Below, one piece after another: positions 1,374-46,167 of a DNA stretch of 46,339 bases. This DNA is from Alphaproteobacteria bacterium. Its GTDB lineage: Bacteria; Pseudomonadota; Alphaproteobacteria; VGDZ01. The position numbers and the translations under genes are program-made. The DNA is taken from assembly GCA_016869515.1 (NCBI GenBank), contig VGDZ01000019.1:1-46339 (forward strand). Direction: 5' to 3'. The first letter of the stretch is position 1; every line of letters begins with the position of its first letter. The notes beneath the pieces are model-generated. The model saw nothing but the letters and a program-made list of their open reading frames with translations. It was not told the DNA's origin and searched no databases.

Positions 1374-2372
1374 TCAGCCGAGACGCTCGGTCAAACGTTC
1401 GATCACTTGTTCCAGGCCGACGCCGTCGGCGCGGGCGGCGAAATTGACCGCCATGCGGTGGCGCAGCACCGGCGCCGCCAGGGCGACGACATCGTCGACC
1501 GAAGGCGCCAGCCTGCCGTCGAGCAGGGCGTGGGCGCGCACCGCCAGCATCAGCGCCTGGCTGGCACGCGGTCCTGGACCCCAAGCGACATGCTTGCGCA
1601 CCAGGTCGAGATCGCTGGTCTCGGGTCGGCCGGCCCGCACCAGATCGAGGATGGCGTTCATCACCGCCTCGCCGACCGGGACGCGCCGCACCAACCGCTG
1701 GGCGGCGATCAGTTCCTCGGCGCTCATCGCCTGGGCGGGGCGCTCGTCGTTGTTGCCGGTGGTCGCCAGCAGCATCAAGATCTCAGCCTCGCGGTCGGGA
1801 TAGCCGACATCGATCTGCATCAGGAAGCGATCGAGCTGGGCTTCGGGCAGGGGGTAGGTGCCCTCTTGCTCGATCGGGTTCTGGGTAGCGAGGACATGGA
1901 ACGGCGCCGGCAGCGCATAGGACTGGCCGGCGACCGAGACCTGGTGCTCCTGCATCGCCTGCAGCAGCGCCGACTGGGTGCGCGGGCTGGCGCGGTTGAT
2001 TTCGTCGGCCATCAGCACCTGACAGAACACCGGACCCTTGATGAAGCGGAAGGCGCGCCGGCCATGCTCGGTCTCTTCCAGCACCTCCGAGCCGAGAATA
2101 TCGGCCGGCATCAAATCGGGAGTAAACTGGACGCGTTTGGCGGAAAGCCCGAGCACCGTGCCCAAGGTCTCGACCAGCCGGGTCTTGGCCAGGCCCGGTA
2201 CGCCGATCAACAGCGCGTGCCCGCCCGACAGGATGGTGATCAGCGACTGGTCGATGACCGTCTTCTGTCCGAAGATCACGCGACCGATCCGGTCGCGTAC
2301 GGCCATCATCTTGCGGCCCAACCCCTCGACGTCGCGGATCAGGGAGTCATCGGCCGCAGTGGCGATCTGCAT
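1374..2372 (-). CDS. MoxR family AAA+ ATPase
   Basis: A 332-aa protein of normal length for the family. Walker A GVPGLAKT is at residues 57-64, Walker B VLMADE at 119-124, sensor 1 ATQNP at 162-166, and LDRF with the conserved arginine at 180-183. MoxR ATPases are chaperone-like and help assemble or activate enzyme complexes, often together with DUF58/vWA partners; both partner genes lie immediately downstream. The ATG is only 8 nt from a perfect TATAAT on the same strand and has no Shine-Dalgarno sequence, so the mRNA may be leaderless. The methanol-dehydrogenase role of the founding member should not be assumed. Confidence 0.93.
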   Translation of the reverse strand: MQIATAADDSLIRDVEGLGRKMMAVRDRIGRVIFGQKTVIDQSLITILSGGHALLIGVPGLAKTRLVETLGTVLGLSAKRVQFTPDLMPADILGSEVLEETEHGRRAFRFIKGPVFCQVLMADEINRASPRTQSALLQAMQEHQVSVAGQSYALPAPFHVLATQNPIEQEGTYPLPEAQLDRFLMQIDVGYPDREAEILMLLATTGNNDERPAQAMSAEELIAAQRLVRRVPVGEAVMNAILDLVRAGRPETSDLDLVRKHVAWGPGPRASQALMLAVRAHALLDGRLAPSVDDVVALAAPVLRHRMAVNFAARADGVGLEQVIERLTERLG

Positions 2373-2380
2373 GGCGGGGA

Positions 2381-2411
2381 ATTATATACGAAAGGCCGGA
2401 AGTCGTGGGAA
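2381..2411 (-). promoter_or_regulatory. Possible promoter of the moxR operon, leaderless start
   Basis: On the minus strand there is a perfect -10 TATAAT (2386 to 2381) and an imperfect -35 TTCCCA (2411 to 2406), with a 19-nt spacer. Transcription from it would start about 7 nt downstream, at or next to the moxR ATG at 2372. The -10 is strong, the -35 weak. Confidence 0.45.
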
Positions 2412-2423
2412 AATGGCAAGGCC

Positions 2424-2987
2424 ATGAGCAGCGACATTGCGCGGAGTTTGGCCGGGTTGAAGGGCGCGGTTCCGAGCGGACCGGGCGGCCGGCCGATGCT
2501 GTTCTGCGGCGACATCGACATGCGCATCGGCCGCGACGGCACATGGTACTACCTGGGCTCGCCGATCGGCCGCAAGCCCTTGGTCAAGCTGTTCGCGACC
2601 GTGTTGCGGCGCGAGGATGACGGCGACTACTACCTGGTGACGCCGGTCGAGCGATGCCGTATCCGGGTCGACGACGCCCCGTTTGTCGCGGTCGAGGTCG
2701 ATGTTGCCGATGGAGGCGACGGGCGGGCGCTGGTGTTTCGTACCAACCTGGACGAACAAGTGACCGCCGACGCCGCGCACCCGATTCGGGTACGAGTCGA
2801 TTCGCTGACCGGCGAGCCGACCCCCTATGTGCTGGTGCGGGCGGGGCTGGAAGCGCTGATCGCGCGGCCGGTGTTCTATCAATTGGTCGGAATGGCCGAC
2901 ACCAGGTTGGTCGATGGGCAGGAGGTTTTGGGCGTGGTCAGTGCCGGCCGGTTCTTCAGCCTCGGCCGCTTGGACGGCAAGCCATGA
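2424..2987 (+). CDS. DUF1285 domain-containing protein
   Basis: 187 aa, cytoplasmic, no signal peptide. The conserved block DIDMRIGRDGTWYYLGSPIG, followed by RKPLVKLFATVLRRE and YYLVTPVE, is the DUF1285 pattern. Function unknown. The ATG at 2424 fits the family's N-terminus; a longer open frame upstream is the antisense of moxR. Its stop overlaps the next start (ATGA), so it heads a translationally coupled six-gene run. No clear Shine-Dalgarno is visible. Confidence 0.85.
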   Translation: MSSDIARSLAGLKGAVPSGPGGRPMLFCGDIDMRIGRDGTWYYLGSPIGRKPLVKLFATVLRREDDGDYYLVTPVERCRIRVDDAPFVAVEVDVADGGDGRALVFRTNLDEQVTADAAHPIRVRVDSLTGEPTPYVLVRAGLEALIARPVFYQLVGMADTRLVDGQEVLGVVSAGRFFSLGRLDGKP

Positions 2988-3610
2988 TCCCCCGTCAGCG
3001 CCTGATCGAGCGGCTGCGAGCGGCCGATGGTTGGCCAGTGCCGGTCGAGACGGCGGTGCGCGGCGCACGCTCGGATTACGATCTCAATCCGAGTGCAGCG
3101 CCCGGACCCAAGCCGCTGACCCGCGCGGCGGTGCTGGTGCCGCTGATTCAGCACGAGGGCGATTGGACGGTGTTGCTGACGCAGCGCACCGATCATCTGC
3201 AGCATCATGCCGGCCAGATCAGCTTTCCCGGCGGTCGGGCCGAAGAGGGCGATAGCGGTCCGGTCGAGACCGCCTTGCGCGAAAGCGAAGAGGAGATCGG
3301 GCTCGATCCGGGATTGGTCGAGCCGATCGGAACGCTCGACACCTACGAGACCGTGACCGGATTCCTGGTGGTGCCGGTGGTCGGATTGGTGCGTCCCGAT
3401 TTTCGGCTCAAGCTCGACAGTTTCGAAGTCGCCGAGGCGTTCGAGGTGCCGCTGGCCTTTGTGCTCGATCGCCGCAATCACCAACGCCACAGCCGGGAGC
3501 GGCAAGGCGTGAAGCGCCACTTCTACGTCCTGCCCTACGAACGGCGCTACATCTGGGGCGCGACCGCGGGCATGCTGGTCAATCTGCACGATCGGTTGGT
3601 GACGCCGTGA
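2984..3610 (+). CDS. Nudix hydrolase, CoA diphosphatase type
   Basis: 208 aa. The Nudix core has G84, R99-E100 and E102-E104 followed by IGL. The usual glutamate early in the box is aspartate (D90), as in many CoA-cleaving members. Just before the box, LLTQRTDHLQHHAGQISFPG (64-83) is the NuCoA motif that marks enzymes hydrolysing CoA or acyl-CoA to 3',5'-ADP and (acyl-)phosphopantetheine. The start overlaps the previous stop by 4 nt. The position just before DUF6111 and the CCA-adding enzyme suggests a conserved alphaproteobacterial operon. Substrate is inferred from the motif. Confidence 0.88.
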   Translation: MIPRQRLIERLRAADGWPVPVETAVRGARSDYDLNPSAAPGPKPLTRAAVLVPLIQHEGDWTVLLTQRTDHLQHHAGQISFPGGRAEEGDSGPVETALRESEEEIGLDPGLVEPIGTLDTYETVTGFLVVPVVGLVRPDFRLKLDSFEVAEAFEVPLAFVLDRRNHQRHSRERQGVKRHFYVLPYERRYIWGATAGMLVNLHDRLVTP

Positions 3611-3954
3611 TCCGCCAGCTGCTGGTCCTTGGCGGCCTGTTCCTGATCCCGTTCGTGGTCTACGGCATCTATCGCCTCTTGGGCGGCGGACGCCCGCCGC
3701 CGCCCGATCCCGAGGCCGAAGCGCGCCGCAAGGCCGAAGAGGCCGCCTTCGCCAAGGCGCACAAGGACGTGCTGCGCGGCCTCAAGCATCAACCGACCGG
3801 CAAGGCGCCGACGGCCGTAGCCAAACCCGTGCCCTGGTTCAGTCTGACGGTGCTGGGCCTGATCATGATCTGCGTCGGTCTGGTTTATTTCGGGCTGGCC
3901 GGGGGCGAGGGGATGTTCAACATCCGCGGCACGCCGGTCAAAGCGGCGCAGTGA
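3607..3954 (+). CDS. DUF6111 family membrane protein
   Basis: 115 aa, GTG start overlapping the Nudix stop (GTGA). Two membrane segments, about 4-25 (ending PFVVYGIYRLL) and 77-98, flank a charged, proline-rich stretch (about 28-60). This length and the LFLIPFVVYGIY motif fit DUF6111, an uncharacterised family usually found between a CoA Nudix gene and the CCA-adding enzyme gene, as here. No function can be proposed from the sequence. Confidence 0.75.
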   Translation: MIRQLLVLGGLFLIPFVVYGIYRLLGGGRPPPPDPEAEARRKAEEAAFAKAHKDVLRGLKHQPTGKAPTAVAKPVPWFSLTVLGLIMICVGLVYFGLAGGEGMFNIRGTPVKAAQ

Positions 3955-5186
3955 GCAAGCCCTGGGTCGCGGTCGAACGTCTGGTCCGCCGCGATTGGCT
4001 GGAGCGGGCAGATACCCGCGCCGTCTTTGCGGCGCTGGCGACCGGCGGAGCCGTGGTGCGGGCGGTCGGCGGCTGCGTGCGCGACTCGCTGCTGGATCGG
4101 CCGGTCGAGGATGTCGACATTGCCACTCCGGAATCGCCCGATCTGGCGACCGAACGACTCGGTCGAGCCGGTATCAAGGTCGTACCGACCGGCCTCAAGC
4201 ACGGCACGGTGACGGCGGTGATCGATCGTCGCGGCTTCGAGATCACCAGCCTGCGACGCGACGTCGCCACCGACGGCCGGCATGCCACCGTCGCCTATAC
4301 CGGGGATTGGCAAGCCGATGCCGAACGCCGCGATCTGACCTTGAACGCGCTTTATTGCGGCGCGGACGGCGAAGTGTTCGATCCGGTGGGCGGCTTGGCC
4401 GATCTGCGGGCGGGGCGGGTGAGGTTCGTCGGCGATCCCGATCGGCGCATCGCCGAAGATCGTCTGCGCATGTTGCGGTTTTTCCGCTTTCATGCCCGCT
4501 TCGGGCGCGGCGAGCCGGATGGTGCCGGGATCGAGGCCTGTCGGCGTGCGGCGCCAGATCTGCTCAAACTGTCGGGGGAACGCCTGCGGGTCGAGACGCT
4601 GAAGCTGTTGGCGTCGCCCGATCCGGTGCCGACGCTGCGCGCCATGCGCCAGGCAGAGGTACTGGAAGTGCTGCTGCCCGAGGCCGATACGTTCCTCGGT
4701 ATCGACAAGCTTGTTGCTTGGGAGCGCGCGCGCGGCCGCTGCGATCCATTGCTGCGGCTGGCGGCGCTGGTGCGCCACCGCGAGACCCGGCCGTTAGCGG
4801 CCCGGCTGAAATTGTCCAATGCCGAGGCCTCGCGGCTGCGCCATTTGACGATTTCGCCGGTGGGGTATTCGGCCACCGCCGCCCCCGAAGCGGTGCGTGC
4901 GGGGGTCTATGCCGTCGGCAAGGCATTGTATCTCGATTTGGTCACGCTGGAGGAGGCGATCGATCCTGCCTTTGCCGCGATCCGTCGCGTGGCCGAGGCG
5001 TTCGAGCCCAAACCGATGCCGGTCGGCGGCGCCGACGCCAAGGCGCTGGGCCTGAGCGCAGGGCCGACGCTTGGCCAGGCGCTGGCCGAGCTGGAGGCGT
5101 GGTGGATCGGGCAGGACTTCCAACCCGATCGCGCTGCGCTGTTGACGAAGCTGGCCGCGATCGTCCGGCGAGAGGCTGCGTCATGA
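3951..5186 (+). CDS. cca: CCA tRNA nucleotidyltransferase (class II)
   Basis: 411 aa. It would add or repair the 3' CCA end of tRNAs. The nucleotidyltransferase head shows GGCVRD (40-45), the metal-binding DVDIAT (54-59), RRDLTLNAL further on, and the class II neck with FDPVGG and EDRLRMLRFFRFHARF. The GTG start overlaps the previous stop by 4 nt, and the end overlaps the next gene (ATGA). The C-terminal part is of the shorter, HD-less alphaproteobacterial form. A poly(A) polymerase is the main alternative, but length and context favour the CCA enzyme. Confidence 0.92.
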   Translation: MSKPWVAVERLVRRDWLERADTRAVFAALATGGAVVRAVGGCVRDSLLDRPVEDVDIATPESPDLATERLGRAGIKVVPTGLKHGTVTAVIDRRGFEITSLRRDVATDGRHATVAYTGDWQADAERRDLTLNALYCGADGEVFDPVGGLADLRAGRVRFVGDPDRRIAEDRLRMLRFFRFHARFGRGEPDGAGIEACRRAAPDLLKLSGERLRVETLKLLASPDPVPTLRAMRQAEVLEVLLPEADTFLGIDKLVAWERARGRCDPLLRLAALVRHRETRPLAARLKLSNAEASRLRHLTISPVGYSATAAPEAVRAGVYAVGKALYLDLVTLEEAIDPAFAAIRRVAEAFEPKPMPVGGADAKALGLSAGPTLGQALAELEAWWIGQDFQPDRAALLTKLAAIVRREAAS

Positions 5187-5827
5187 CCCAGTTGCGGCTC
5201 TTGTTCTTCGGCGATTCGATCGCCAACGGCACTGGCGACAGCAGCTATCTCGGTTGGCCCGGGCGGCTATGCGCGGCCGAGCGCGCCCGGGGCCACGACC
5301 TCACGCTCTACAATCTCGGCGTGCGCGCCGACACCTCGGCGCAGATCCGCCGCCGCTGGCGCAGCGAGGCCGAGGCGCGCTGGCGCAGCGATGTGGCGCA
5401 GGCGTTGGTGTTCGCCTTCGGCGTCAACGACAGCGCCGAGGAAGGCGGGGGCGCAATCCGCGTGCCGCTGGATCAATCGCTGCAAAATGCCGAGGCGATG
5501 CTGACCGAGGCCAAGGCGTTGGCGCCGGTGTTGTGGATCGGACCGGCGCCGATCGCCGATGCCATGCAGCCCTTGCGGCCCTCGGCCACGGTCAGTTTTC
5601 ATTTCCGCAACCGGGTCATCGCCGACTATGTCGCGCGCTATCGCGAACTGGCGGTGCGGATGGGTGTCCCGTTCCTCGATACGTTCGAGGCCCTAGGCCG
5701 CGCCCCGGCCTGGGCGCGTTACGTCGCCGCAGGCGACGGGGTGCATCCCGCGGCGGAAGGCTACGCCATGCTGGCGCGGCTGGTCGATGACTGGCCGGCC
5801 TGGCGGCGATGGATGGGAGGCGCCTGA
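5183..5827 (+). CDS. SGNH/GDSL hydrolase
   Basis: 214 aa, cytoplasmic as far as can be seen (no signal peptide). All four SGNH blocks are present: GDS with nucleophile S12, NLGV with G46, GVND with N82, and DGVH with D185 and H188. It would be an esterase, lipase or thioesterase acting on a small ester; the substrate is unknown. It is coupled by ATGA to cca upstream and by TGATG to the DUF599 gene downstream. Confidence 0.88.
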   Translation: MTQLRLLFFGDSIANGTGDSSYLGWPGRLCAAERARGHDLTLYNLGVRADTSAQIRRRWRSEAEARWRSDVAQALVFAFGVNDSAEEGGGAIRVPLDQSLQNAEAMLTEAKALAPVLWIGPAPIADAMQPLRPSATVSFHFRNRVIADYVARYRELAVRMGVPFLDTFEALGRAPAWARYVAAGDGVHPAAEGYAMLARLVDDWPAWRRWMGGA

Positions 5828-20358: not shown

Positions 20359-21906
20359 ATGACCGACACCGTCCTGATCGTCGACTTCGGCTCGCAAGTC
20401 ACCCAGTTGATCGCCCGTCGCGTGCGGGAGTCCGGGGTCTACAGCGAGATCGCGCCCTACACCAAGGCCGAGGAGGCGCTGGCCCGGCTCAAGCCGCGCG
20501 CCATCATCCTTTCGGGCGGGCCGGACTCGGTCACGGCCGAGTCCGCGCCTCGGGCGCCGATGGCGCTGTTCCTGGCCGGGCTGCCGATCCTCGGCATCTG
20601 CTATGGCGAGCAGACCATGTGCGCGCAATTGGGCGGCACGGTCGAAGGCGGCCATCACCGCGAATTCGGCCGCGCCTTGCTGGAGGTGGTCGAGTCCTGC
20701 GCGCTGTTCGACGGGCTGTGGCCGTCCGGGACCAAGACCCAGGTGTGGATGAGCCATGGCGACCGCGTCACCAAGCTGCCGCCGGGCTTCCGGCCGGTGG
20801 GCGTGTCGGCCGGGGCGCCCTTCGCCGCCATCGCCGACGACAGCCGCAGGTTCTATGGCGTGCAGTTCCATCCCGAGGTGGTCCATACCCAGGACGGCGC
20901 CAAGCTGTTGCGGCGCTTCACCCATGCCGTCGCCGGGCTCAAGGGCGATTGGACCATGGCCGCCTTCCGCCAGCAGGCCATCGCCCGCATCCGCGCCCAG
21001 GTCGGCAAGGGCAAGGTGATCTGCGGGCTGTCGGGCGGGGTCGATTCCGCCGTCGCCGCGGTGCTGATCCACGAGGCGATCGGCGATCAGCTGACTTGCG
21101 TCTTTGTCGATCACGGCCTGTTGCGCTTGGGCGAGGCCGAGGAGGTGGTGCGGGTGTTCCGCGACCGCTTCAACATCCGGCTGCTGCATCGCGACGCCGC
21201 GCGGCTGTTTCTCGATCGCCTGGCGGGGATCGACGATCCCGAGAAGAAGCGCAAGACCATCGGCGCCACCTTCATCGACGTCTTCGAAGAAGAAGCGCGC
21301 AAGGTCGGCGGCGCCGAGTTCCTGGCCCAGGGCACGCTCTATCCCGACGTGATCGAGAGCGTCTCCGCCACCGGCGGGCCGTCGGTGACCATCAAGTCGC
21401 ATCACAATGTCGGCGGCCTGCCCGAGCGCATGAACCTCAAGCTGGTCGAGCCCTTGCGCGAGCTGTTCAAGGACGAGGTGCGGGCGCTGGGCCGCGAACT
21501 CGGCATGCCGGACAACGTCGTCGGCCGGCATCCCTTTCCGGGGCCGGGGTTGGCGATCCGGGTACTGTCGGCGGTCAGCGCCGAGAAGCTCGACATCCTC
21601 CGTCGCGCCGATGCGATCTATCTCGACGAGATCCGCAAGGCCGGGCTTTACGACAAGATCTGGCAGGCTTTTGCCGTGCTGTTGCCGGTGCGCACCGTCG
21701 GCGTAATGGGTGATGCGCGCTCCTACGACCACGTGCTGGGCCTACGCGCCGTCACCTCGACCGACGGCATGACCGCCGACAGCTATCCCTTCGAGCACGC
21801 TTTTCTGGCGCGCACCGCCACCCGCATCGTCAACGAGGTGCGCGGCATCAACCGCGTGGTCTACGACGTCACCTCCAAACCGCCCGCCACCATCGAGTGG
21901 GAGTAG
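20359..21906 (+). CDS. guaA: GMP synthase (glutamine-hydrolysing)
   Basis: 515 aa. It converts XMP to GMP. The class I amidotransferase domain has C81 (ILGICYGEQ) and the FHPEVVHT motif; the ATP-pyrophosphatase domain has the PP-loop [12 protein letters not shown]; and the C-terminal dimerisation domain ends PPATIEWE. Start at 20359 matches the family; the longer frame upstream is a shadow. No clear Shine-Dalgarno. The AT-rich island begins directly after its stop, and the 3' end of guaA is a known insertion site for genomic islands in other bacteria. Confidence 0.97.
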
Positions 21907-22072
21907 AATCTCTGATTTAAGTTGTTGATTTATAGAGAGTTTCTAGCTACGCAAGACAGACCCACGCCCTGCCAAATTGTTGACTTAGTTGGGCGTTGGC
22001 ATTAAAGTTACACGTAAAGCTACACAGCGCTATATTGACTTGCGGCCAGCTATTATTAAAGCGGCTGTTGAG
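21907..22072. other. AT-rich left flank of the island behind guaA
   Basis: The base composition changes abruptly at the guaA stop from strongly GC-rich to AT-rich. An imperfect inverted repeat (21905-21913 with 21934-21944) could end guaA transcription. No gene with a recognisable product is present; a short plus-strand frame from 21989 looks like chance. Confidence 0.6.
22003..22025 (+). repeat. Tandem pair TAAAG(T/C)TACAC
   Basis: TAAAGTTACAC (22003-22013) is repeated as TAAAGCTACAC (22015-22025), one mismatch, period 12 nt. It lies about 50 nt beyond the 3' end of the esterase gene. Such short iterated sites can be recombinase arm or regulator sites, but two copies may be chance in AT-rich DNA. 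Confidence 0.35.
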
Positions 22073-23026
22073 TTAGTGTGGGCGACGATACTTATGTATC
22101 GCATCTGCGTAAGCGGTCGCTGTCTTAAGTTGCCCAGTCTCGCTGAAGTGACACAAGTCACGTCTATCTTCATTTTCAAGTAACTCGTCAGTATTTACCG
22201 CTAAAAATATTTGACTATTATCTTGAAGATTTTTTTGTCCTATAGCCGTTGGATTACTTGCCTTCCAATACGGACTGATGCCGCACTTTGTTGCAACAGC
22301 GATAAAGAATGGCGCTGTAACGCCCGCAGTTCTCAAACTATTTTTTAGTGAGTAAAAAGATCTCTCATATATTTTTGTTGACGTGCTATTATAAAAGTCA
22401 GCTTCTCCTTGATGCCATACAACGTCTGTTACTCCATATATTTTGATAGATACCAAAGTGTCCAATAACATTTGGTTTAAGTCACCATCTTCTTGCCAGC
22501 GTGCTATTGGAGTTCCTCCAATTCCAGACGAAATAATGACAATCGCTTTATACGTACCGTATTCAATCAGCTTATCGGCAAGCGGCGTTATAAACTCTCC
22601 TTCTTCCCCGGATGCCCCTAATAATGGCGAGGATGCTACAAAGCATTTACCATCATAATAGTTAAATACTTGATTGGGATAACGGGTAATTACCTTTTTC
22701 TCAGCGAAGTTAGCTGCGTTTGATTGTCCGATAGACAGTAATACACCAGTCTCTGAGCTTTGCGCTGGGCAAGAAACTTCTTTTTTTCCACTTATCGCTA
22801 CAAGTCTTCCAAACTCATCATATTGTCCAATACCTAATGCTGATGTAATATTATATTTGTTTTTTAATGTCCTTATTAAATCAATCGGAAAAATATTGCG
22901 GGCGTAGCTGTGTGCGCCAAAAAGATATGCTGAAGATAATGTGACGAGGGATAAGCAAGTGACAATCAGCGCTTTTCTTATTTTACTGGAAGCATTATTG
23001 CGCGCGCTCTCTCTCGTATCAGTCAT
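22073..23026 (-). CDS. Membrane-anchored sialate O-acetylesterase-like (SASA/SGNH) hydrolase in an AT-rich island
   Basis: 317 aa from the ATG at 23026, with AGGA a few bases upstream; a TTG 18 nt earlier is less likely. An N-terminal membrane segment at about 18-37 would anchor it with the catalytic part outside. The SASA signature is complete: LLSIGQSNAANF with S102, VVWHQGEADF with E208, and RRDLCHFSETGQ with D290 and H293. The family removes acetyl groups from sugars such as sialic acid or xylan; its use in surface polysaccharide modification is an inference. Codon choice is AT-rich and unlike every neighbour, which points to recent transfer. Confidence 0.85.
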   Translation of the reverse strand: MTDTRESARNNASSKIRKALIVTCLSLVTLSSAYLFGAHSYARNIFPIDLIRTLKNKYNITSALGIGQYDEFGRLVAISGKKEVSCPAQSSETGVLLSIGQSNAANFAEKKVITRYPNQVFNYYDGKCFVASSPLLGASGEEGEFITPLADKLIEYGTYKAIVIISSGIGGTPIARWQEDGDLNQMLLDTLVSIKIYGVTDVVWHQGEADFYNSTSTKIYERSFYSLKNSLRTAGVTAPFFIAVATKCGISPYWKASNPTAIGQKNLQDNSQIFLAVNTDELLENEDRRDLCHFSETGQLKTATAYADAIHKYRRPH

Positions 23027-23059
23027 TGCCGATCCTGTCAGCAAGTTGTCGCTATGCTC

Positions 23060-23087
23060 ATTCTACTTGTGCGTCGTAACAGCGCAA
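23060..23087 (-). promoter_or_regulatory. Possible promoter of the esterase gene
   Basis: On the minus strand TTGCGC (23087 to 23082) and TAGAAT (23065 to 23060) are 16 nt apart, ending about 34 nt before the ATG at 23026. The -10 matches consensus at five of six positions, the -35 at three. Confidence 0.35.
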
Positions 23088-23273
23088 GTGCTTGGGTGTT
23101 CTTTTGTTGGGCAACGTGTAACCATAGGCGCGTAGAGTCTAACAAACTCAATAGGTTACTTAAGCTCATGCTGCTACAAAAAAGAACAATAAAGTCGCGC
23201 AACACTTACACGCTAACGATTTGGCGGGCTGTAACCCGATTGGAAAAAAAAGTGGTTTTTGCCAACGTAACTA
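23088..23273. other. AT-rich right part of the island, no gene seen
   Basis: Mostly AT-rich sequence with no supported gene. A poly-A/poly-T hairpin-like element (23240-23265, TTGG plus A-run, GTGG, T-run plus GCCAA) could act as a weak terminator on either strand. Compositional change back to GC-rich occurs after the palindromes that follow. Confidence 0.5.
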
Positions 23274-23334
23274 GACCGCGATCGGTTCATAGGGAATCAC
23301 GGGCGCGATTCCCTATGAACCGTGAATCGCGGTC
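23274..23334. repeat. Long palindrome 1 (25/28-nt arms)
   Basis: Left arm 23274-23298 and right arm 23307-23334 pair over 9 plus 16 bp around an 8-nt loop (23299-23306). The right arm carries 3 extra bases. The paired core is CGGTTCATAGGGAATC. It lies at the right border of the AT-rich island, outside any gene. Confidence 0.85.
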
Positions 23335-23349
23335 CAAAGCAGGATACGA

Positions 23350-23406
23350 GGGCATGACTAACGATCTGTCTTGAACTCTATGGTTCAAGACAGATCTTTC
23401 ATGCCC
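23350..23406. repeat. Long palindrome 2 (imperfect)
   Basis: Left arm 23350-23376 and right arm 23383-23406 pair over GGGCATGA and GATCTGTCTTGAAC, with an internal CTAAC versus two-base bulge and a 6-nt loop (23377-23382). It lies 15 nt after palindrome 1 and 55 nt before hicA. Both palindromes contain GGTTCA followed later by ATC in one arm, so they may be related. Confidence 0.85.
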
Positions 23407-23461
23407 TAAAGAATGGGAGTGACGACCGGCAGTGACGCAGTGAGAAAAACGTCTCGATCGC

Positions 23462-23680
23462 ATGCGCGCCAACCCCGGCGTCGATTGGAAGATCGAGGAT
23501 ATGATTGCGATTGCCGAACGCCTCGGGATCGCATCTCGGCGGCAGGGCGGTAGCCATGTTGCCTTCCGGGCGGCGAGCGGCAACTATGCGGTCGTACCGG
23601 CGCGGCGGCCGATCAAAGCGGTCGACGTCCGGCAATTCGTTGCCATGATCGATGGTTCGGGGAAGAGCGATGATTCGTGA
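23462..23680 (+). CDS. hicA: HicA family toxin (type II toxin-antitoxin)
   Basis: 72 aa. The dsRNA-binding-like fold is suggested by IEDMIAIAERLGI, RRQGGSHVAFR with the catalytic-type H32 in GSH, and YAVVPARRPIKAVDVRQFV. HicA toxins are ribosome-independent mRNA interferases. The ATG at 23462 is the only in-frame start; codons just upstream would encode EKRLDR, which fits family N-termini, but a TGA at 23441-23443 cuts the frame. The end overlaps hicB by 11 nt, the usual coupling. It sits next to the island border. Confidence 0.8.
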   Translation: MRANPGVDWKIEDMIAIAERLGIASRRQGGSHVAFRAASGNYAVVPARRPIKAVDVRQFVAMIDGSGKSDDS

Positions 23681-24071
23681 TCTCGAATATCCCTATGTCA
23701 TCAGACCCCTGTCGCGGCACGAAGGGGGTGGGTCCCTGATCGTCTTTCCCGATCTGCCGGGATGCGCATCGAATGGGGAGACGCCGGAGCAGGCGGTCGT
23801 CAATGGGGCCGATGCGCTGCGGACGTTGCTCCTGACCATGAAGGAGTTTGGCGATCCCGTTCCACCGTCTTCGTGGCCGGAACAAATACGATCGGTTGCC
23901 GGCGTCATGCCGGTTTGGTTGCCGCGGGGCGTGACCAAGAAGCTGGTGGCGCGGGCACACAGCGAAGGCGTGTCGGCCGAGGTCATGGTGGTTTCGCTTG
24001 TGGCGGAGGGGTTGGCGAAGGCGAAACCGAGAACACTACATCGCAAATCGTCCAAACGTCGCGCGGCGTGA
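23670..24071 (+). CDS. hicB: HicB family antitoxin
   Basis: 133 aa from the ATG at 23670, after a GGAAGAG site. The N-terminal HicB-like (partly degraded RNase H) domain shows LIVFPDLPGCASNGETPEQA (23-42). The C-terminal part LPRGVTKKLVARAHSEGVSA looks like a ribbon-helix-helix DNA-binding domain, so it would neutralise HicA and repress its own operon. Start overlaps hicA. Confidence 0.87.
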   Translation: MIRDLEYPYVIRPLSRHEGGGSLIVFPDLPGCASNGETPEQAVVNGADALRTLLLTMKEFGDPVPPSSWPEQIRSVAGVMPVWLPRGVTKKLVARAHSEGVSAEVMVVSLVAEGLAKAKPRTLHRKSSKRRAA

Positions 24072-44940: not shown

Positions 44941-46167
44941 TCAAGCGGCGCGAACGCGTTCGTCGCCGCGATCGTGTTCGTCGACCCTCAGCAGATAGTC
45001 GCGGGTCAGCGGCACCGCGTCGGCGCGCTTGGTCAACTGGATCTGAAACACCACCAAACCGGCATGGCGGAAGGCGGCCTCGCAGCCGGCGAGGTAGAAC
45101 TCCCACATCCGCACGAAGCGTTCGTCGTAGAGCGCTTGTGCCTTGGCCCGATTGGCCAGGAAGCGCGCGCGCCAATGGCGCAGGGTCTCGGCGTAATGCA
45201 GCCGCAGCACTTCGATGTCGGCGACCATCAGGCCCGAGGGTTCGATCGCCGCCATCACCTCCGACAGCGCCGGAACGTAGCCGCCTGGGAAGATATAGCG
45301 CTCCATCCATGGATTGTTGACCGAGGGTCGCGTGGTGCGGCCGATGCTGTGCAGCAGCATGACCCCGTCGTCGGACAACAACCTGGCGGCGGCGTCGAAA
45401 AAGGCCCGGTACTGGGGGACGCCGACATGCTCGAACATGCCGACCGAGACGATGCGGTCGAAGCGGCCCTCGACCGCGCGGTAGTCCTTGAGCTCGAAGC
45501 GGACGCGATCGGCCAGTCCGGTCTGCAACGCACGCTGGCTGGCGGCGGCGTGCTGCTCGGCCGAGAGGGTGATGCCCAGCACCTCGGAGCCGGTGGCGCG
45601 AGCGAGGTGCAGCGCCAGCCCGCCCCAGCCCGAGCCGATGTCGAGCACGCGGCCAGGGCGGTCGATCGCCAGCTTGGCCGCGATCAGCTCGAGCTTGTTG
45701 CGCTGCGCGGCCTCCAGCGTCTCCTCGGGGTCGCGGAAATAGCCGCAGGAGTAGTGGCGGTCGGAATCGAGGAACAGCTCGTAAAGCCGGCCGTCGAGGT
45801 CGTAGTGGTGGGCGACGTTGCGCCGGGCTTGGCTGGCCGAGTTGCGTTGGCGCCAGCAGCTCCAGTGCGAGCGCAGCCGGGCCCAGGGGGTCCAGCCCCA
45901 GGGCTTGCCGCGCGGCCAATTGCGGAGCGCGAGGTCGCACAGCGCATGGATGTCGCCGCGCTCGATCGTCAGGCGGCCGTCGGTGTAGGCCTCGCCGAAG
46001 CGCAGCTCGGGATCGAGCACCAGCGACCACAGCGTGCGGCGATCGGCGACGCGCACCGCCACCCAGGGCTCCTCGCCCGAGCCGAAGCGGCGCAGCGGCC
46101 CCGCGCCGACCGCGATGTCGAGCGTGCCGCGACCGACCAGGCGCCTGAGTATCGTGGCCAGCAGCAT
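44941..46167 (-). CDS. cfa: Cyclopropane-fatty-acyl-phospholipid synthase family methyltransferase
   Basis: 408 aa. ARRNVAHHYDLDGRLYELFL and HYSCGYF (138-144) are the CFA lipid-binding motifs, VLDIGSGWGGLALHLA (174-189) is the SAM site, followed by ISVGMFEHVG-type and FPGGYVPALSEV blocks. It would add a methylene bridge from SAM to unsaturated membrane lipids. It lies between probable rplI and dnaB, where most alphaproteobacteria do not have it. GGGGG precedes the ATG. Confidence 0.88.
   Translation of the reverse strand: MLLATILRRLVGRGTLDIAVGAGPLRRFGSGEEPWVAVRVADRRTLWSLVLDPELRFGEAYTDGRLTIERGDIHALCDLALRNWPRGKPWGWTPWARLRSHWSCWRQRNSASQARRNVAHHYDLDGRLYELFLDSDRHYSCGYFRDPEETLEAAQRNKLELIAAKLAIDRPGRVLDIGSGWGGLALHLARATGSEVLGITLSAEQHAAASQRALQTGLADRVRFELKDYRAVEGRFDRIVSVGMFEHVGVPQYRAFFDAAARLLSDDGVMLLHSIGRTTRPSVNNPWMERYIFPGGYVPALSEVMAAIEPSGLMVADIEVLRLHYAETLRHWRARFLANRAKAQALYDERFVRMWEFYLAGCEAAFRHAGLVVFQIQLTKRADAVPLTRDYLLRVDEHDRGDERVRAA

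Follow-up and report, generated by a model that had tools for sequence, protein, structure and literature searches.

How did a single AT-rich gene come to lie directly behind guaA in a GC-rich alphaproteobacterial contig? We addressed this question in a window of 46,339 nucleotides (the whole stretch of DNA analysed; contig VGDZ01000019.1, here G000:C19), which belongs to a genome of 3.69 Mb in 166 contigs. The reading that we favour, with a probability of about 0.93, is that the island represents a small integrative element, inserted at the 3' end of guaA and now decayed.

Composition, borders and cargo of the island

A sequence-only reading of the window had placed a sharp compositional shift at the guaA stop codon, and this shift is real, with GC falling from 0.68 in guaA to approximately 0.40 straight after the stop codon (21906) and recovering after 23500. 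GC is 0.41 in 21907-23273, compared to a window mean of 0.667 and to a mean of 0.675 (sd 0.022, minimum 0.614) in 954-bp sliding windows outside the region. The same reading had normal composition return from 23406, and in this respect the border needs revision: the AT-rich DNA stops at 23273, positions 23274-23406 (GC 0.52) are a dispersed repeat, and the true right end of the element is the core at 23411-23420. We additionally identified a hicA/hicB-like pair of near-normal GC (23462-24071) directly to the right of this end, apparently outside the element, in which the HicA match is below the Pfam cut-off.

The island contains one coherent gene for a SASA/SGNH acetylesterase with AT-rich codons, as had been proposed. 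Its product matches Pfam SASA (PF03629) with 54.7 bits (cut-off 24.8), and its coding sequence has a GC of 0.40 and a GC3 of 0.33, against a GC3 of 0.86-0.91 in guaA and two neighbours. The gene looks intact, retaining the motifs GQSN (Ser), W-QGE and D-CH (Asp/His) that are conserved among homologues, and a TTG at 23044 is a possible alternative start. Homologues are sporadic (approximately 26-39% identity), occurring on Rhizobium plasmids, in Rhizobium and Agrobacterium phages and in 5 of 384 other Alphaproteobacteria, and where examined were roughly like their surroundings in composition, unlike the window gene. No close relative was found in genome and viral scans, and the esterase is thus not traceable to a donor. 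The suggestion of a possible promoter within the island gained no support, as the 7 promoter-like matches (2.6 +/- 1.9 in shuffles) are not promoter evidence. An open reading frame at 23054-23374 (+) was discarded, as it spans the right arm and the 133-bp repeat.

Table 1. Features of the window (upper rows, with positions) and related loci behind guaA in other genomes (lower rows, with lengths)
Feature or locus	Position or length	Strand	Remarks
guaA (GMP synthase), host gene	20359..21906	+	Pfam GMP_synt_C, GATase
attL			last guaA bases ...GAGTGGGAGTAG, E-W-E-stop; by homology partly element-supplied
Left attachment core GAGTGGGAGT (attL)	21895..21904	+	includes published core GAGTGGGA
Left arm of element	21907..22031	+	70-85% identical, nearly gapless, to 15 other guaA-adjacent arms
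Putative deletion junction CTACACAGCGCT	22020..22031	+	left flank matches left arm, right flank integrase 2
Integrase 2 remnant	22022..22078	+	last 19 codons (TQRYIDLRPAIIKAAVELV), stop codon lost
SASA-family (SGNH) carbohydrate acetylesterase, cargo	22073..23026	-	317 aa from ATG; hydrophobic N-terminal segment
Right arm of element	23186..23273	+	interrupted just before core; resumes 23409-23410
133-bp two-hairpin dispersed repeat (MITE-like), one copy	23274..23406	+	TA duplicated at 23272-23273 and 23407-23408
Right attachment core GAATGGGAGT + stop (attR)	23411..23422	+	displaced native guaA tail, E-W-E-stop in frame
L119, Polynucleobacter	6.3 kb		intact; cargo: RmlD-like reductase and methyltransferase domains in one open frame
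L120, Burkholderiaceae	5.5 kb		intact; cargo: no Pfam match, SGNH-type motifs GNSIT, GDN, DNHP read by eye
L121, Chromobacterium sphagni	5.2 kb		intact; GC ~0.42 in 0.63 host; cargo: methyltransferase
L122, Oligoflexia	1.6 kb		recombinases lost; cargo: PglD_N and hexapeptide acyltransferase
L123, Rhodoferax	3.2 kb		transposase-like insertion in integrase region; cargo: two small ORFs of unknown kind
L125			cargo: acyltransferase-3, partial, contig end

The borders had been noted to share only the 7-mer TGGGAGT, with the mechanism left open. We confirmed the 7-mer, whose copies at 21898-21904 and 23414-23420 are the only ones on the forward strand of the window, a third lying on the reverse strand at 45099. 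As approximately three copies per window are expected by chance, the 7-mer alone is no proof. Both border copies lie in frame as the last codons of GuaA (E-W-E-stop), and GAGTGGGA has been published as the core of guaA islands (PMC9376610, PMC7775301), this context and this core together identifying the shared 7-mer as the attachment core. These published islands also bear out the earlier statement that the guaA 3' end is a known island site. The island is flanked by a direct repeat (GAGTGGGAGT at the left and GAATGGGAGT at the right, with 7 of the 8 core bases of GAGTGGGA), and the right core GAATGGGAGTGA and the left GAGTGGGAGTAG are identical over 7 bases. The junction GAGTGGGAGTAGAA at the guaA end is common to the window and its relatives, and the relatives L119-L122 have GAGTGGGA in both core copies. 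The difference between the left and right cores of the window fits the right copy being a displaced native guaA tail. An empty guaA site, joined to the hicA side without the arms, would read ...GARTGGGAGTGACGACC. The mechanism can now be stated as probable site-specific recombination of a tyrosine-recombinase element at the guaA core, followed by deletion of the recombinases.

The left arm and intact relatives

We investigated the distribution of the left arm in other genomes, the nearest of which share only the class with the window genome. A pattern of the guaA end plus TTGATTTAT was found in 2 of 385 genomes of the class, the window genome and G162, with an identical 39-bp spacing. The G162 flank aligns to the window without gaps over approximately 100 nt, with a local alignment score of 89 (best of 500 shuffles, 28). 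A left-border motif from the best-conserved part, GTTGGCATNAARGTNACNMGNAARGC, was scanned across 84,980 genomes and identified 15 loci, all 15 of them approximately 100 nt behind a guaA stop codon. The hosts are Burkholderiaceae and relatives (including Polynucleobacter, Rhodoferax, Curvibacter and Comamonas), Chromobacterium sphagni, an uncultured proteobacterium, and one MAG each of further Betaproteobacteria, Enterobacterales, Bdellovibrionales, Oligoflexia and Alphaproteobacteria, the last of these represented by the same contig as G162. The loci thereby span Alpha-, Beta- and Gammaproteobacteria and Bdellovibrio/Oligoflexia MAGs, mostly from aquatic bacteria.

Both a recurring border and other cargo in the same place, proposed as marks of an island, were found, since the resolved elements among these loci carry different cargo genes. 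The opposite pattern, one gene shared by all relatives at this position, was not observed: the esterase was found in none of the 15 genomes and only in the few other Alphaproteobacteria given above. The left arm had no matches in phage or plasmid scans, and the 8 matches of the core plus TTGATTTAT in viral sequences were due to chance, none of them lying at guaA. No new copy was recovered when 399 Pseudomonadota and 350 genomes from the family of the Polynucleobacter relative were scanned with patterns, indicating that the element is rare.

This recurrence bears on the idea that the esterase arrived by homologous or illegitimate recombination and that the shared 7-mer is a coincidence. The number of TGGGAGT copies expected in the window would allow for this, but both arms recur at the same site in other genomes (the left arm in 15), and a recombinase fragment lies between the arm and the cargo, such that we give this idea almost no credence.

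Right ends were resolved in five extended loci, L119 to L123 (Table 1). The three intact elements (L119-L121) share the order guaA, left arm, integrase 1, ORFs, integrase 2, cargo, right arm and displaced guaA tail, the tail consisting of the codons E-W-E-stop and the cargo, beside the right arm, being encoded on the opposite strand. Integrase 1 (429 aa) and integrase 2 (217-237 aa) both match PF00589; for integrase 1 of the relatives this was the only integrase domain matched in Pfam, with weak matches to Xer models in NCBIfam. In four of the five relatives the right end reads ...ACGTTACTATTGAGTGGGARTRR or near it, that of L122 having diverged.

These elements allow us to weigh a prophage remnant, in which a temperate phage at guaA has left only a lysogenic-conversion gene, the acetylesterase. 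Phages are known to integrate at guaA, and relatives of the esterase with 27-37% identity occur in Rhizobium and Agrobacterium phages. Such relatives, however, are also found on Rhizobium plasmids and in other alphaproteobacterial genomes, no phage structural gene was recognised in the three intact relatives (5.2-6.3 kb), and searches with integrase 1 gave no match in plasmids, phages (50,697 phage records), E. coli or IMG/VR. We consider a prophage origin very improbable.

The recombinase remnant and the repeat in the right arm

A tblastn search of the window with integrase 2 identified a match of 79% over 19 aa, and the integrase 2 of the relatives ends in ...TTQRYIDLRPAVIKAAVELV-stop. In four relatives, the repeats corresponding to the junction (left arm against integrase 2) agree at 10-12 of 12 positions. 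Loss of the DNA between these 10-12-bp repeats, approximately 4.2-4.5 kb, would give exactly the junction of the window. Integrase 1 was not found in the whole window genome. The earlier statement that no integrase is present was therefore nearly right, except that 19 C-terminal codons of the second recombinase remain. Judged from its sequence, the window copy is a remnant and not a functional member of the two-recombinase guaA element family and, as it lacks everything between the interior of the left arm and the final codons of recombinase 2, cannot move by itself.

We propose the following history for this decayed element. A two-tyrosine-recombinase element would have integrated at the GAGTGGGA core, with recombinase 1 catalysing the reaction and the end of guaA being restored by the element. 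Deletion between short repeats would have removed both recombinases, leaving the arms, the integrase 2 tail and the esterase; this loss may have occurred either before arrival, the element being a non-autonomous passenger moved in trans, or afterwards. The 133-bp repeat would then have inserted into the right arm.

When the repeat and one TA are removed in silico, the 88 nt of the right arm align end to end with L120 (score 74; best of 1000 shuffles, 43) and L121 (61 against 39). The scores for the five relatives sum to 230, against a null maximum of 142, and to 75 with the repeat left in; of the five, L120 and L121 show clear similarity, L119 is a borderline case, and L122 and L123 show weak similarity. 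As the repeat is dispersed and multicopy, and its removal restores the right arm of the relatives, it is not part of the island. By this comparison it is a later, unrelated insertion at a TA in the right arm, extraneous to the element.

A composite or MITE-borne transposition, in which the palindromic repeat itself moved the gene, would agree with the presence of a multicopy repeat at the right edge. There is, however, only a single copy, with none at the left border; this copy lies inside the right arm with a TA duplication, and the repeat is found in at least 41 other places without the esterase gene. We regard transposition by the repeat as scarcely credible, and retain the integrative element as the source of the island.

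The repeat has at least 42 copies in the genome (the 41 further places include L002-L008 and L040-L070), and the 42 full copies that were aligned have a mean column identity of 94%. Two long hairpins are predicted, in which 9 of 45 predicted pairs are changed on both sides with pairing kept, and one subtype exchanges a stem segment along with its partner. TA borders most copies on either side, the usual form being YTA on the left and TAR on the right. According to a simple coding-score count, approximately 16 of the 42 copies supply the stop codon of the upstream gene with their left TAG, approximately 16 have the TAG stop codon of the convergent gene as their right edge, and 11 do both; this MITE-like family seems to favour positions at which the stop codon is preserved (a YTAR target). 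At one place (L065; G000:C80:12293-12844), three repeats were inserted successively, approximately 70 bp apart, in an apparent single protein-coding gene, and their removal gives in-frame joins for two of the three, a second example of target-site duplication. The repeat is lineage-specific in our sample, with a partial match in only one other alphaproteobacterial genome of 371, a 66-bp piece (81%) at G121:C14:49179-49245 (L128). No match was obtained in the genome for an IS630-like DDE_3 transposase (PF13358), and a search of Rfam with the repeat gave nothing above chance.

Possible role of the cargo, known islands and other guaA inserts

We infer that the esterase is exported or membrane-anchored and strips O-acetyl groups from a surface glycan. 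Its removal of these groups could alter recognition by phages, grazers or hosts, and the earlier view of the gene as cargo for phage or host interaction is plausible. An alternative role for the same element is that the esterase acts in catabolism, on scavenged or plant-derived O-acetylated sugars (xylan- or pectin-like), and not on the cell's own surface glycans. Among solved structures its only match is a weak one to 1ZMB, an acetylxylan-esterase-related enzyme, and the rhizobial homologues on plasmids have no obvious adjacent glycan-synthesis neighbours, both of which favour catabolism. Against this, the gene stands alone, with no transport or catabolic genes, and other cargo in the same slot is of the glycan acyltransferase or deoxysugar type. 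We consider the catabolic role unlikely, albeit less so than the other alternatives above.

Returning to surface glycans, we hypothesise that surface-sugar editing is a common theme of the cargo. This is no firmer than a hypothesis given the small sample, as it draws on what family names or motifs suggest for six cargo genes, and two of these contain methyltransferase domains, which are generic. Tentatively, and at somewhat under even odds, 5-6-kb two-recombinase elements that are neither phage nor plasmid may move among Alpha-, Beta- and Gammaproteobacteria and Bdellovibrio-like bacteria via one universal site, the end of guaA, mostly in aquatic habitats, each copy bringing one or two genes for the acetylation, deacetylation, methylation or other alteration of a surface sugar, and reduced copies of arms and cargo perhaps moving in trans. 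Such a surface-glycan switch would be a phage-free counterpart of serotype conversion. Temperate phages carry serotype-conversion genes such as O-antigen acetylases, in which, as in the proposed effect, a single gene alters surface-glycan O-acetylation; in contrast, the elements have no phage genes, and the window gene would remove acetyl groups instead of adding them.

Previously described guaA-associated islands, GIsul2 (PMC9376610) and ICERspD18B (PMC7775301), resemble the window family in the guaA 3' end and the GAGTGGGA core, and the same insertion site is attributed to the islands of Song et al. 2012 in the citation within PMC7775301. In such islands a tyrosine recombinase adjoins guaA, as it does in the intact relatives of the window element. 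The published islands frequently, although not universally, have a P4-type integrase with alpA; no P4-type integrase was found in the window. GIsul2 and ICERspD18B carry resistance or conjugation genes, and the new elements differ in their size of 5-6 kb, two ORF-separated tyrosine recombinases, shared left arm and one or two cargo genes, and the window copy also in the loss of its recombinases. SE elements (PMC10214605) are likewise small, with more than one tyrosine recombinase and cargo on the scale of a single gene, but have an intA-tfp-intB operon plus srap and are known only in Gammaproteobacteria, whereas L119-L121 have their recombinases apart, no intA-tfp-intB operon that we could see, and guaA as target. 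Tycheposons and flexible genomic islands of aquatic bacteria (PMC10872708) similarly carry cargo and tyrosine recombinases and occupy fixed sites in the genomes of freshwater bacteria, with glycocalyx-modifying genes as part of the island content; these have tRNA-gene borders or are gene-cluster replacements, unlike the window element, which uses guaA. The use of guaA as a site, its core and SASA enzymes are already known, and the two-recombinase family, with its conserved left arm and its occurrence in several classes, looks new within the open PubMed Central literature.

A stray AT-rich gene can thereby be read as the fossil of a mobile element. With the left arm behind guaA as a signature, members of the family can be recognised in any bacterial genome, including those in which the recombinases have disappeared, and with a single guaA site the empty state is easy to score. 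If the glycan theme is true, environmental bacteria would swap surface-sugar edits, and possibly phage receptors, without phages or plasmids.

The guaA end can be regarded as an insertion hotspot, with other inserts identified among the members of the same class that were examined. G001 has a 3.3-kb AT-rich insert behind guaA and a duplicated 58-codon guaA tail; the insert (L089; G001:C51, ~1880-5366) contains D12 DNA methyltransferase, ParB-like and Mrr-type restriction genes, and resembles a defence island that lacks an integrase. G011 has a truncated integrase behind guaA that shares 64% identity with integrase 1, the left arm there being a different one (L091; G011:C47), and a degenerate copy of the guaA tail lies on a separate contig (L090; G011:C21). 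The left arms of the G001 and G011 inserts do not align with the window arm beyond chance. G039 has an AT-rich insert of approximately 1 kb directly behind guaA, with one ORF of unknown function (L027; G039:C1). An odd case was found in G010 (L092; G010:C47, ~1864-2400), where guaA is interrupted in frame by approximately 178 codons matching PBECR3, a phage nuclease-like domain (E 2.6e-24), and remains a single open frame of 726 codons.
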